Assembly: GCA_905221205.1 (NCBI GenBank) | Contig: CAJNCG010000002.1 | Span: 124,001-188,000 of the forward strand | DNA from: a bacterium | GTDB taxonomy: Bacteria > Bacillota > Bacilli > Lactobacillales > Streptococcaceae | Direction of reading: 5' to 3' | Length of the DNA stretch: 64,000 nt | In this document: piece by piece, positions 12,845-46,471 of the stretch | How the letters are laid out: each line of letters opens with the position of its first letter | How positions within the stretch are numbered: the stretch's first letter is position 1 | Translations under genes and position numbers: made by a program | The notes under the pieces: model-generated | Told to the model about the DNA's origin: nothing | What the model saw: the letters and a program-made list of their open reading frames with translations, nothing else | The model's database searches: none

Positions 12845-12955
12845 AATAAAAGCAATAGAAATGATGGTCAAAGCTCATGGATGTTGCAGGCTTTTTTGTC
12901 CTGCACTTCTTTGGAGTTTTGACTGTTTTTGTGTCGTTTAGAGGAAAGGATAAAA

Positions 12956-43460: not shown

Positions 43461-43605
43461 GAAAACGGTAGGTGAGGCTACCATAGGGATACGGATGACT
43501 ACCGCAAAGCAGTGGAGACACTACTCGTTGGTCAACAGTCCTGGTCGCGAAGGCTAAGACTAAGCTCATTACATTGCCCTATGGAGTTAAAGCTTGAACG
43601 AAAAA
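43461..43605 (+). ncRNA. M-box (ykoK) magnesium riboswitch
   Basis: Conserved M-box blocks are present in order: GGTAGGTGAGGCTACC (43467-43482), CATAGGGATACGG, GGTCAACAG near 43530, then TTGCCCTATGGAGTTAAAGC (43574 on) and TGAACG. CCATAGGG (43481-43488) can pair with CCCTATGG (43577-43584), the long-range helix of this class. M-box RNAs bind several Mg2+ ions and promote termination when Mg2+ is ample. A terminator follows at 43624. A covariance search against the Rfam M-box model would confirm it. Confidence 0.85.
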
Positions 43606-43623
43606 ACAGATAGTTAGTTTTTT

Positions 43624-43655
43624 AATCCTGCCATTTTTTGATGGTAGGATTTTCT
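43624..43655 (+). terminator. riboswitch-associated intrinsic terminator
   Basis: ATCCTGCCAT pairs with ATGGTAGGAT (one G-U), followed by TTTTCT. It lies directly after the M-box and before the leader ORF, as an expression platform should. Confidence 0.8.
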
Positions 43656-43685
43656 ACTGTTTAAATCAAAGAAAGGAGATAGACG

Positions 43686-43757
43686 ATGCAAATTGACGAT
43701 CATCCGGAACCGCACATACACAGCCAATCGCTGATTTGTGTCGTTCTGCCCTTATAA
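43686..43757 (+). CDS. 23-codon leader peptide upstream of mgtA
   Basis: ATG 43686 to TAA 43757, with a near-perfect AAAGGAG site seven bases upstream. The N-terminus is M-Q-I-D-D-H-P-E-P-H-I-H: two aspartates and a P-E-P at residues 4-9; the end is L-I-C-V-V-L-P-L. Codons 10-16 form the 5' arm of an 18-bp hairpin whose 3' arm starts on the base after the stop. Acidic and proline-rich N-termini destabilise translating ribosomes at low Mg2+ in E. coli (the MgtL leader of mgtA works so). I infer the same sensing role. I know of no described Gram-positive homologue. Confidence 0.7.
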   Translation: MQIDDHPEPHIHSQSLICVVLPL

Positions 43758-43812
43758 AGTGATTGGTCTCTGTGTATGAAACACATCATTCATACAGATA
43801 GGAGAAACCAAT
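43715..43812 (+). promoter_or_regulatory. two mutually exclusive hairpins controlling the mgtA ribosome binding site
   Basis: Hairpin A: CATACACAG-CCAATCGCT (43715-43732, inside the leader ORF) with AGTGATTGG-TCT-CTGTGTATG (43758-43778), 18 pairs with one G-U and a 3-base bulge. Hairpin B: ATTGGT (43762-43767) with ACCAAT (43807-43812), CTCT with GGAG (the Shine-Dalgarno, 43801-43804), and TGTATGAA (43773-43780) with TTCATACA (43789-43796). B buries the mgtA site and start. Both need 43762-43778, so only one can form. Confidence 0.65.
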
Positions 43813-46471
43813 GAAAACTACAAAAGAAAGATTAGCAACAGCTATTCATACATCTTTAAACGAAACTCTATCTTTTTATAAGACAAGTCTAACAGGCTTG
43901 ATTGAGGAACAAGTCGAAAAAAATCGTAGTCTCTATGGCGAAAATATGATTACCAAAGGTCAAGAAGATTCGATTTTGAAAAAGATTTACGAATCGATTA
44001 TCAATCCTTTCACAATTATCTTGCTTGTCATTGCTACTATATCTTTAGTGACCAATGTTTGGTTGGCAAAACCAGGTCAAGAGGATCCAACGACTTCTAT
44101 TATCATCGTTGTCCTAGTCCTCATTTCTGGTGGAATTCGATTTGTTCAAGAGCTCCGTAGTGATAAGGCAGCCACCAATCTTTCAAAAATGATTGTCAAC
44201 ACAGCAACTGTCATTCGTCAAGGTGAAATTCAAGAAGTACCTATCGATGATTTGGTAGTAGGTGATGTGGTTAAATTAAGCGCTGGGGATATGATTCCAG
44301 CAGACCTTCTTTTATTTGAGTCGCGCGACTTCTTTGTACAACAATCTGGTTTGACAGGAGAAAGTGATGCAGTTGAAAAATTGGCCTTGACCAAGGCAAC
44401 AGACCAACAATCTGATAGCCTTCTTGAAGTTGAATCCTTGGCATTTATGGGAACCAATGTTTTGTCTGGTAGTGCTAAGGCCGTGGTTTTGGCGGTTGGT
44501 GATGCTACCATGATGGGAGCTATTGAGCAGACTCTAAACACCTATGATGAGCCCACTTCGTTTGAACGGGAGATGAATAGTATTTCTTGGCTCTTGATTC
44601 GCTTGATGTTGGTTATGGTTCCCATTGTTTTCTTGTCCAATGGTTTAACAGATGGTGATTGGTTAGAAGCAGGTGTATTTGCACTGAGTGTCGGTGTTGG
44701 ATTGACACCTGAGATGCTACCTATGATTATTACCGCTAGCCTAGCAAAGGGTTCTATTATCATGGCCAAGGAAAAAGTAGTTATCAAAAAACTCAATGCC
44801 ATACAGGACTTAGGGGCGATTGATATCTTGTGTACAGATAAAACAGGAACTCTAACCCAAGATGAGATCGTTCTAGAATATCCCTTGGACATCCACGGAC
44901 GCTTGGATTTGACCGTCTTGAGACGGGCCTATCTCAATTCCTATTTTCAAACTGGCTTGAAAAATTTGATGGACAGAGCCATCATCAAACGGACTGAAAA
45001 GGAAGCAAAAGAACACGCCTTCTTGCAAAATCTGGATAAAACCTTTCAAAAAATAGATGAGCTTCCCTTTGATTTTGAACGTAGACGGATGAGTGTTATC
45101 GTTAAGGATGAACACGAAACGGTTAGTTTGGTAACTAAGGGAGCCCTTGAGGAAATGTTGACGATTTCCAGTCATGCGGAATACCATGGAATGATTACTC
45201 CCTTGACAGATGCTATTAGAGAAGAAATCTTAGCAGAAGTCAGACAGCTAAATCAACAAGGTTTGCGTGTCTTGGGAGTAGCCTATAAGTCAGGTTTGAG
45301 GGAAGGTCATGCCTATACAGTTGATGACGAAGGAGATATGATTCTAACTGGTTATTTAGCTTTCCTAGATCCTCCTAAACCATCTGCAGCACCAGCAATT
45401 AAGGCACTGTTAGAACATGGGGTTCAAACAAAGATTTTGACGGGAGACAATGAAAAAGTTACCCAAGCAGTCTGTGAAAAGGTTGGTTTGGATATCAATC
45501 AGATGCTGTTAGGGTCTGAAATTGACCAGATGAGTGATCAAGAATTGGCTCAAGCCGTAGAGGAGGTAACAGTCTTTGCCAAACTTTCTCCTGACCAAAA
45601 AGCAAGAATTATTTTGCAATTTAAGGCTAACGGTCATGCTGTTGGCTATATGGGAGATGGAATCAATGATGCTCCTTCTATGAAAGTAGCAGATGTTGGG
45701 ATTTCTGTTGATACAGCAGTAGATATTGCCAAAGAAACGGCTGATGTTATCTTACTTGATAAGGATCTTATGGTTCTTGAAAAAGGACTCGTTGAGGGTC
45801 GTAAGGTCTATGCTAATATGACCAAATATATCAAAATGACAGTGAGTTCTAATTTTGGGAATATCTTATCTCTTTTGGTTTCTGGGATCTTTTTACCCTT
45901 TCTACCGATGGCACCAGTCCATCTTATTATTCTAAATCTAGTCTATGATTTGTCTTGTATTGCCTTGCCTTTTGACAAGGTGGATAAAGATTTTTTGAGA
46001 AATCCGCATATATGGGAAGCTAAGTCCATCACACGTTTCATGGTTTGGATGGGGCCTATCTCTTCTGCCTTTGATATTTTGACCTTTATTTTGCTCTATT
46101 TTATCATTGTACCCATGACAACAGGTCAAGCTTATGTCCATGGAGCGGAGTCTGCCGTAGGATTTATTGTCTTGTTTCAGACAGGTTGGTTTATCGAGTC
46201 CATGTGGTCACAGACCATGGTTATCCATATGCTGCGTTCAGCCAAAATTCCCTTTTTACAAAGTCGTCCAGCTTGGCTAGTCCTTGTGACAACCTTATTG
46301 GCTGCAGCCTTTGTGACCTTCCTTCCCTACAGTCCACTAGCTAGCCTTCTCCATCTAACTCCTTTAAAACCGATTTATTTCATCTTTTTACTTTTCATCA
46401 TTATTTTGTATATGATTAGCGTGACAATTGTGAAAAAAATTTATATCAAGAAATATCAAGAATGGCTGTAA
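43811..46471 (+). CDS. mgtA: magnesium-importing P-type ATPase MgtA
   Basis: 886 residues, the P-type IIIB length. TGES actuator loop near 185, phosphorylation site CTDKTGTLTQDE (Asp near 343), nucleotide-domain KGALEEM near 440, hinge GDGINDAPSMKVADVGISV near 615, and about ten membrane helices. It imports Mg2+ into the cytoplasm at the cost of ATP. The 406-base upstream region combines an M-box, a terminator, a leader ORF and RBS-sequestering hairpins, which strongly supports Mg2+ as substrate. It is monocistronic. Some mitis-group genomes carry a different calcium/manganese P-type ATPase elsewhere, not this gene. Confidence 0.93.
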   Translation: MKTTKERLATAIHTSLNETLSFYKTSLTGLIEEQVEKNRSLYGENMITKGQEDSILKKIYESIINPFTIILLVIATISLVTNVWLAKPGQEDPTTSIIIVVLVLISGGIRFVQELRSDKAATNLSKMIVNTATVIRQGEIQEVPIDDLVVGDVVKLSAGDMIPADLLLFESRDFFVQQSGLTGESDAVEKLALTKATDQQSDSLLEVESLAFMGTNVLSGSAKAVVLAVGDATMMGAIEQTLNTYDEPTSFEREMNSISWLLIRLMLVMVPIVFLSNGLTDGDWLEAGVFALSVGVGLTPEMLPMIITASLAKGSIIMAKEKVVIKKLNAIQDLGAIDILCTDKTGTLTQDEIVLEYPLDIHGRLDLTVLRRAYLNSYFQTGLKNLMDRAIIKRTEKEAKEHAFLQNLDKTFQKIDELPFDFERRRMSVIVKDEHETVSLVTKGALEEMLTISSHAEYHGMITPLTDAIREEILAEVRQLNQQGLRVLGVAYKSGLREGHAYTVDDEGDMILTGYLAFLDPPKPSAAPAIKALLEHGVQTKILTGDNEKVTQAVCEKVGLDINQMLLGSEIDQMSDQELAQAVEEVTVFAKLSPDQKARIILQFKANGHAVGYMGDGINDAPSMKVADVGISVDTAVDIAKETADVILLDKDLMVLEKGLVEGRKVYANMTKYIKMTVSSNFGNILSLLVSGIFLPFLPMAPVHLIILNLVYDLSCIALPFDKVDKDFLRNPHIWEAKSITRFMVWMGPISSAFDILTFILLYFIIVPMTTGQAYVHGAESAVGFIVLFQTGWFIESMWSQTMVIHMLRSAKIPFLQSRPAWLVLVTTLLAAAFVTFLPYSPLASLLHLTPLKPIYFIFLLFIIILYMISVTIVKKIYIKKYQEWL

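Follow-up and report, generated by a model that had tools for sequence, protein, structure and literature searches.

The window, that is the whole stretch of 64,000 nucleotides analysed here, carries the gene of the P-type Mg2+ ATPase MgtA, which is preceded by an M-box riboswitch and a short open reading frame (ORF) with its own Shine-Dalgarno sequence (SD). The features of this region, with their positions in the window, are the following.

43462-43613, + strand: M-box (Mg2+) riboswitch aptamer RF00380 (cmscan, 88.2 bits, gathering score 44)
about 43624-43655, + strand: intrinsic terminator of the M-box, a 12-bp hairpin and a T-run (pairing in the predicted fold and reading of the sequence)
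43672-43679, + strand: SD of the leader ORF, AAAGGAGA (read from the sequence; last base 6 nt 5' of the ATG)
43686-43757, + strand: leader ORF, with ATG, 23 codons and TAA, translated as MQIDDHPEPHIHSQSLICVVLPL
43695-43712, + strand: acidic-proline codons 4-9, D-D-H-P-E-P, where ribosomes may pause or abort (changes in IDDHPEPH concentrated at third positions, p=7e-18)
43705-43748, + strand: stem hp0, 43705-43715 with 43738-43748, inside the ORF and enclosing most of the hp1 5' arm (minimum free energy (MFE) fold, covariation)
43715-43778, + strand: stem hp1, putative anti-sequestrator, core 43724-43732 with 43758-43766 (paired cells, compensatory changes)
43715-43723 with 43770-43778, + strand: extension of hp1 (by eye, outside the pairing count)
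43762-43812, + strand: stem hp2, putative sequestrator masking the mgtA SD and start, 43762-43770 with 43802-43812 and an inner stem of 43770-43779 with 43790-43797 (MFE fold)
43799-43805, + strand: mgtA SD region, TAGGAGA (best anti-SD hybrid)
43811-46471, + strand: mgtA, P-type Mg2+ ATPase of 886 aa (TIGR01524, 1074 bits for a cut-off of 611; NF011702, 1092 bits)

The aptamer was assigned to the M-box family by a covariance-model match over the gathering score, and the expression platform, a terminator hairpin with its T-run, is present. This terminator was absent from the output of a simple consensus promoter/terminator scan of the window, and its hairpin was taken from the fold instead. 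The original prediction had placed a 23-codon ORF with a strong SD between the M-box terminator and mgtA; its coordinates are right, and translation of 43686-43757 does give D-D-H-P-E-P for residues 4-9. No match to the leader peptide MQIDDHPEPHIHSQSLICVVLPL was found in NCBIfam. Elsewhere in the window, positions 12853-12919 match the Streptococcus sRNA Spd-sr37 (RF02419, 87.9 bits).

A protein search of 197 Streptococcus genomes found at least 103 with an MgtA beyond the paralogs of about 30% identity, of which 99 are full-length, 3 partial or broken and 1 only 43% identical (G016). The upstream DNA of these 103 was joined to that of the 80 loci of a named collection (78 streptococcal loci, Granulicatella elegans and Abiotrophia defectiva), with some overlap of species between the two sets. 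The mgtA start could be located by BLAST in 181 of the 183 loci, which gave, together with the window, 113 distinct leaders. In all 113 of these mgtA-ortholog leaders from Streptococcus, Granulicatella and Abiotrophia, either the acidic-proline ORF is present or its core is found in a displaced position. A screen that itself selected SD-preceded ORFs for acidic-proline residues within their first 14 found one in 110 of the 113. The remaining three retain the DDHPEP core, which an insertion has shifted in L012 and L131 and which follows an N run in L048. We also used an objective caller, which takes the ORF with the best anti-SD energy, gives a bonus to ATG and seeks the motif within residues 2-15. 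It found the motif in 101 of 111 leaders of the streptococcal set (0.17 in shuffles) and in 8 of 12 peptide clusters; all ten misses contain the ORF, eight having a competing upstream start and two an insertion. Among the tabulated peptides, the SD of the leader ORF is mostly AAGGAG or AAGGAGG, with a few cases of AAAGGG or GGAG.

The degenerate pattern GAYGAYCAYCCNGARCCNSAY occurs in 88 of the 197 Streptococcus genomes, once per genome, and the same pattern read backward as a control gave 5 matches across the 197. Of 17 loci of the streptococcal and named sets that were searched for an M-box, 16 have one. One leader missed by BLAST (L179) has an M-box and, by eye, the peptide MSSDDHPISQQEITIRK, which starts MSSDDHPISQ; the leader of the 43%-identical MgtA (L183) had no M-box in the covariance-model test and no acidic-proline ORF by eye. 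Peptides from deeper lineages differ and keep the acidic-proline character, as in MPNDDHPSQQ (S. intermedius) and MPEDGHPEK (S. massiliensis), and the leaders of the other genera encode MPEPDSKQ (Granulicatella) and MPNADSEP (Abiotrophia). Five leaders (L127, L131, L133, L180 and L012) carry a similar insertion of at least about 100 bases between the ORF start and the mgtA SD; it splits the hairpin region, and the DDHPEP core is retained in 5 of 5. The core is also retained in the leaders of three of the 103 genomes (G078, G146 and G162) where mgtA is partial, in pieces or interrupted by stops.

Nucleotide changes were then counted by parsimony on a tree made, without alignment, from the first 1500 nt of mgtA. 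It comprised 76 of 81 sequences (the 80 named loci and the window), chosen by a pattern demanding most of the IDDHPEPH residues; the five omitted are deeper lineages or other genera (L104, L106, L107, L109 and L110). The IDDHPEPH codons underwent 37 changes, distributed as 5, 0 and 32 over codon positions 1, 2 and 3, with 6 amino-acid changes (expected nonsynonymous 0.82; p=7e-18); Pro7 shows a single Pro-to-Thr change and Pro9 none. The two codons that follow change freely (7, 7 and 2 by position, 11 amino-acid changes), and the next five (SQSLI) show 6, 8 and 12 changes by position with 9 amino-acid changes. Because 32 of the 37 changes in IDDHPEPH are at third positions and only 6 alter an amino acid, we conclude from this sequence comparison that the start of the ORF is under selection as a peptide. 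The comparison of leaders across streptococci suggested by the original prediction was thus carried out: the ORF, with its SD and its acidic and proline residues, is kept at the amino-acid level, and the residues after these vary.

Such a selection on amino acids could also be expected of a small trans-acting protein, one that targets MgtA for instance. MgtR-type peptides act on MgtA in this manner. However, conservation of the leader peptide is limited to its start, its length and C-terminus vary and it has no NCBIfam match, so that we find a trans-acting product extremely unlikely. Another explanation concerns the RNA itself: the conserved stretch would be a structural RNA element, and the ORF a by-product that at most keeps the RNA open. 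This would agree with the location of ORF codons 13-16, which hardly vary, in hp1, and with the covariation of the third base of Pro7 in hp0. Yet the strong bias of the IDDHPEPH changes toward third positions argues against it, as does the fact that unrelated peptides retain an acidic-proline start behind a strong SD (see below), and a role of the RNA only appears very unlikely to us. Selection on the peptide is the reading that we retain.

The unrelated peptides come from other Lactobacillales, where TIGR01524 matches over the cut-off were found in 233 of 395 genomes and 70 loci were sampled among the matches listed. The M-box is present in 36 of 40 tested leaders (19/20 and 17/20). Among 67 distinct mgtA leaders from these other Lactobacillales, the best-SD ORF bears the acidic-proline motif in 49 (0.12 in shuffles); by peptide cluster, the motif is found in 28 of 46, the figure for real protein N-termini being 41 of 340 (12%). 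Residues 2-11 of the 67 leaders contain on average 2.49 acidic residues and 0.73 prolines (0.72 and 0.28 in shuffles). Examples are MDHPSPQSIKR, MEHPSPSRQ, MEDPHQRRNK, MEDPGSEQRNK, MDHHQGEEVEDPDSYY, MPQFLEDDPAEPESS and MKSTTKASENSDPGSQ. ORFs of different lineages differ at the C-terminus and in length, which goes from 12 residues to over 30, and the motif ends anywhere from codon 4 to about codon 14 across the natural leaders. In 18 of the 67 leaders the motif is absent from the called ORF. Seven of these are acidic without the motif (L234, L259, L260, L261, L264, L214 and L220), and inspection by eye revealed, in another frame or place, an acidic-proline ORF in L237, L241 and L242 and an acidic-start ORF in L226 and L257; no such ORF was noticed by this non-exhaustive inspection in L223, L228, L235, L249, L252 and L254. 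Judged from these calls, the acidic-proline character is recurrent in unrelated leader peptides.

One would wonder whether proline alone could account for these observations: a shortage of charged tRNA-Pro or EF-P would stall ribosomes at Pro codons, as has been proposed for mgtP and mgtL, and the acidic residues would be incidental. Pro7 and Pro9 are indeed conserved, effects of EF-P and proline are known for mgtL and mgtP (PMC6460261, PMC3641672), and such a stall would use the fold switch described below equally well. However, the window peptide has few prolines and no adjacent PP, acidity is more constant than proline over the 67 leaders (the above means of 2.49 and 0.73), and leaders devoid of proline in residues 2-11 can be acidic (L259, L261, L264 and L220). 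We thus consider sensing of proline or EF-P unlikely and keep the acidic-proline codons as a whole for the putative pausing or abort site.

How the ribosome could affect mgtA is suggested by three stems that compete in the window: hp0 within the ORF, hp1 between ORF codons 13-16 and the stretch that follows the stop, and hp2 between that same stretch and the mgtA SD and start. They were assessed in 20 aligned streptococcal leaders, 19 of them distinct. The core of hp1 has 97.7% of its cells paired and two compensatory pairs, its covariation score being reached by 7 of 500 shuffles. For hp0, 88.9% of cells are paired and the covariation score is above all 500 shuffles, mainly through the third base of Pro7, whose pair is C-G in 6, G-U in 6, A-U in 5 and broken in 2 of the 19 leaders; the inner pairs of hp0 are broken in 4 to 7 of the 19. 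In the same 19 leaders hp2 has 84.8% of its cells paired, and its covariation does not go beyond shuffles.

The cost of freeing the mgtA SD was then computed by thermodynamic folding of only the RNA that lies beyond the leading edge of the ribosome, set 15 nt past the start of the P-site codon. The input was restricted to motif-bearing leaders, 55 after collapsing near-identical starts, which form 36 peptide clusters. Over these clusters the cost is 2.28 kcal/mol with the ribosome at the motif versus 5.13 kcal/mol 4-8 codons later, that is a mean rise of 2.85 kcal/mol (shuffles -0.22, sd 1.28). The rise is positive in 31 of 36 clusters and larger than 2 in 20 of 36, versus 3.1% of shuffles; in 20 of 36 clusters, none of 30 shuffles was as high as the observed rise. 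The effect is stable for leading edges of 12, 15 and 18 nt. Permuting the motif positions among leaders lowered the mean from 2.85 to 1.74, with 7 of 5000 permutations reaching the observed value. The position of the motif correlates with that of the steepest rise in the 30 clusters with an amplitude above 2 (rho 0.47, p=0.0095), the correlation over all 36 clusters not being significant (rho 0.28, p=0.10). L248 and L247 are among the leaders with a strong predicted switch; the rise is absent or negative in five clusters (L099, L107, L244, L246 and L250) and practically nil in L110. The ribosome-free RNA is mixed across clusters, with an SD cost of at least 3 in 23 of 36. Altogether, these calculations predict that, across lineages, the ease with which the mgtA SD becomes free depends on where the ribosome stops on the leader ORF. 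In the leaders L194-L207, which belong to one family and genus and carry the acidic ORF MDHHQGEEVEDPDSYY and its relatives, freeing the SD is expensive at every ribosome position for most of the members that were folded, at about 5 to 9 kcal/mol (2.6 to 8.4 in L206), and the readout there may differ.

The window's own predicted switch is weak. Its SD cost is 4.6 kcal/mol in ribosome-free RNA, the SD being already sequestered by the predicted fold. With the P site at codon 3 the cost is 4.5, at codons 4-8 it is 3.2, 2.2, 3.6, 3.8 and 2.8, at codons 9, 10, 12, 16 and 20 it is again 4.6, and at codon 23 it is 3.0. The MFE fold with a ribosome at codon 5 still contains hp2, and the fixed-statistic rise of the window clade is 0.9, a value reached by 3 of 30 shuffles. 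Because the effect in the window is weak, the switch is evident from the comparison of lineages and not from the window alone.

These costs also bear on simple translational coupling, in which translation of the ORF would open hp2 or feed ribosomes to mgtA, more translation of the ORF giving more MgtA. Some ORFs do end near the gene start (at -16 in L238), and the SD cost drops again at the very end of several of them (L093, L104, L238 and L255). Nevertheless, a ribosome that has moved 4-8 codons past the motif makes the SD costlier than one standing at the motif in 31 of 36 clusters, and we judge this explanation highly improbable.

We propose instead, and consider likely, that the leader ORF acts as the sensing part of a translational attenuator placed in series with the M-box, where low Mg2+ would halt or abort ribosomes at the acidic-proline codons and thereby switch mgtA on. 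Low Mg2+ lets transcription through M-box terminators. This first step is established for M-boxes, and at the present locus, whose membership was computed here, transcription would likewise pass the terminator. The leader ORF would next be translated, its acidic-proline start being, as supported by the comparison, selected as a peptide. By analogy with MgtL and MgtQ, the ribosome would be destabilised at low Mg2+ by its short acidic-proline nascent chain and would pause or abort around codons 4-9. A ribosome held at the motif would leave the 5' arm of hp1 free, so that hp1 would form and hp2 would be prevented from masking the mgtA SD. With ample Mg2+, on the other hand, the ribosome would run on and cover this arm, and hp2 would form and mask the SD. 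The folds predict this last step clearly in many lineages and weakly in the window. Because the ribosome-free RNA of the window is predicted to be OFF, a held or paused ribosome would fit the window better than a clean drop-off.

A parallel can be drawn with the MgtL leader of mgtA in E. coli and Salmonella, whose acidic/proline N-terminus is said to destabilise the ribosome at low Mg2+ and so to switch on mgtA. Like MgtL, the window ORF is a short leader ORF with its own SD upstream of mgtA, and in both of them acidic residues alternate with proline near the N-terminus (D-D-H-P-E-P in the window). In MgtL, drop-off of the ribosome has been reported at EPDP (PMC11282234). The original prediction had the two unrelated in sequence, and MQIDDHPEPHIHSQSLICVVLPL indeed gave no alignment with MgtL at E<=100, peptides this short giving little power. 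The outputs differ, that of MgtL being Rho-dependent termination and that predicted for the streptococcal leader SD sequestration. Rho was found over the cut-off in 0 of 40 Streptococcus genomes (best 42 bits for a cut-off of 509; controls over the cut-off 8/14), the best matches of 42 bits being, we presume, ATP synthase subunits. Streptococci therefore appear to be devoid of Rho by this profile search and, since none was found, an MgtL-type Rho output would be unavailable to them. The MgtL-like reading of the original prediction is thus retained for the sensor, as the acidic-proline ORF is selected and the predicted folds depend on the position of the ribosome, and revised for the readout, where SD sequestration is predicted as for MgtQ. 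By analogy, the streptococcal ORF is best called a member of the translation-aborting kind of Mg2+ leader peptides; it shows no descent from MgtL and is not classed as an MgtL itself.

The closest system in logic is MgtQ, upstream of Salmonella mgtB. This short ORF is reported to carry Asp/Glu and a single Pro close to its start, its acidic codons are required, and alternative stem-loops free the RBS of the transporter (PMC8092293); similar mutually exclusive stems, one of them masking the transporter SD, are found in the predicted folds of our leaders, weakly in the window. MgtQ differs by its location between mgtC and mgtB and its 8 codons, no M-box is mentioned in the passages considered, and the likeness is one of description (PMC8092293). 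Several Gram-positive leader ORFs are far longer, with the motif as late as codon 13-14. MgtQ is from enterobacteria, and a similar ORF in Brucella is mentioned in the same paper (PMC8092293). Attenuators of the MgtP/TrpL type also share with our leaders the selection between exclusive stems by the position of the ribosome on a leader ORF. The trpL leader senses charged tRNA and acts on transcription. The same is stated for mgtP in PMC3641672, and trpL is named as an attenuator for comparison in PMC8092293. In mycobacteria, PMC12810186 describes Rv1805A, a conserved uORF that follows the M. tuberculosis Mbox and has a conserved proline near its N-terminus. The likeness is again one of description, and there are differences: the uORF itself is said to be under the control of the M-box, by way of a translational platform and Rho, and to be specific to mycobacteria; its role is given there as unclear (PMC12810186). 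That report indicates that uORFs behind M-boxes are being noticed (PMC12810186).

In the M-box riboswitch RF00380 the aptamer alone is the known sensor; the new element is the acidic ORF that follows the aptamer, as a putative second stage. To our knowledge, destabilisation of the ribosome by the nascent chain as a Mg2+ sensor is known from enterobacteria only. In CC-licensed PMC full text, a scope outside which most subscription papers lie, we found no report that a Gram-positive mgtA has an acidic leader peptide. The original prediction was likewise made without awareness of such a sensor being described in streptococci.

At the level of the class, M-boxes were found in 45 of 131 genomes and 30 loci were sampled, of which 3 are second mgtA copies within Lactobacillales (L275-L277). 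The gene that follows matches the window MgtA by BLAST in 6 of 30, the others being mgtE-like, permease-like or ambiguous by eye. With a first ORF caller, which allowed no overlap with the gene and went 230 nt back, the motif was found in 4 of 29 class-level leaders, that is at shuffle level (0.15). These M-boxes were dropped as negative controls, since strong-SD ORFs had escaped this caller, either through overlap with the gene or because they are located farther upstream. A changed caller, devised after seeing the class-level data, found the motif in 16 of 28 class-level leaders (0.16 in shuffles) and an acidic residue 2 in 20 of 28 (0.07 in shuffles). Without further modification, this caller was next applied to 30 M-box loci from other genomes, all outside the class Bacilli, where the motif was present in 10 of 27 (0.12 in shuffles) and residue 2 acidic in 12 of 27 (0.08 in shuffles); two loci were omitted because the gene was too close and a third because no ORF was called. 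Peptides from outside Bacilli include MDPDPGSSIKN, MDADPDDLKVK and MESDDDYLKK. The same caller gave the motif in 51 of 67 Lactobacillales mgtA leaders, with residue 2 acidic in 30 of 67, and in 101 of 111 leaders of the streptococcal set. An acidic second residue was rejected as a general mark, since it fails in Streptococcus (0/111). Strong-SD ORFs starting with M-D/E, such as MDSDGDSSKRKY and MDDGTGLHIQ, were also observed among the M-box loci L295-L324, outside Bacilli.

From these sequence counts, the phenomenon seems to extend beyond streptococci and to be linked to M-boxes in Bacillota. A broader hypothesis, for which we see about even chances, would be that the M-boxes of Bacillota often act as the first of two stages of Mg2+ sensing. 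The second stage would be the ribosome itself, with an acidic leader peptide (M-[DE]- or acidic-proline) of freely replaced sequence downstream of the aptamer. It would regulate mgtA as well as mgtE-like and other genes, through SD sequestration in Lactobacillales and, in some Bacillales, perhaps through a second terminator. If Gram-positive Mg2+ transporters are also governed by destabilisation of the ribosome, with unrelated peptides and a different RNA readout, that principle is convergent or ancient, and one of the best-known riboswitches has had an overlooked partner. The leader set also offers many natural acidic-proline sequences for testing what makes a ribosome unstable.

Terminator-like hairpins were found in the last 120 nt of 4 of 70 Lactobacillales mgtA leaders. 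Between the M-D/E ORF and the gene, they are present in 5 of the 23 class leaders with an SD-preceded M-D/E ORF and in 0 of 16 outside the class. At L278, L280 and L282, which precede mgtA and have the ORFs MEGSPSSQ, MEDGHSRR and MEGSPSNQ, respectively, a second terminator-like hairpin with a T-run lies in the interval between the ORF and the gene. The class-level M-box loci L272 and L289 likewise have a second terminator-like hairpin and T-run between the acidic ORF and the gene, an arrangement of the sequence that suggests a transcriptional readout at L278, L280 and L282 and also at L272 and L289.
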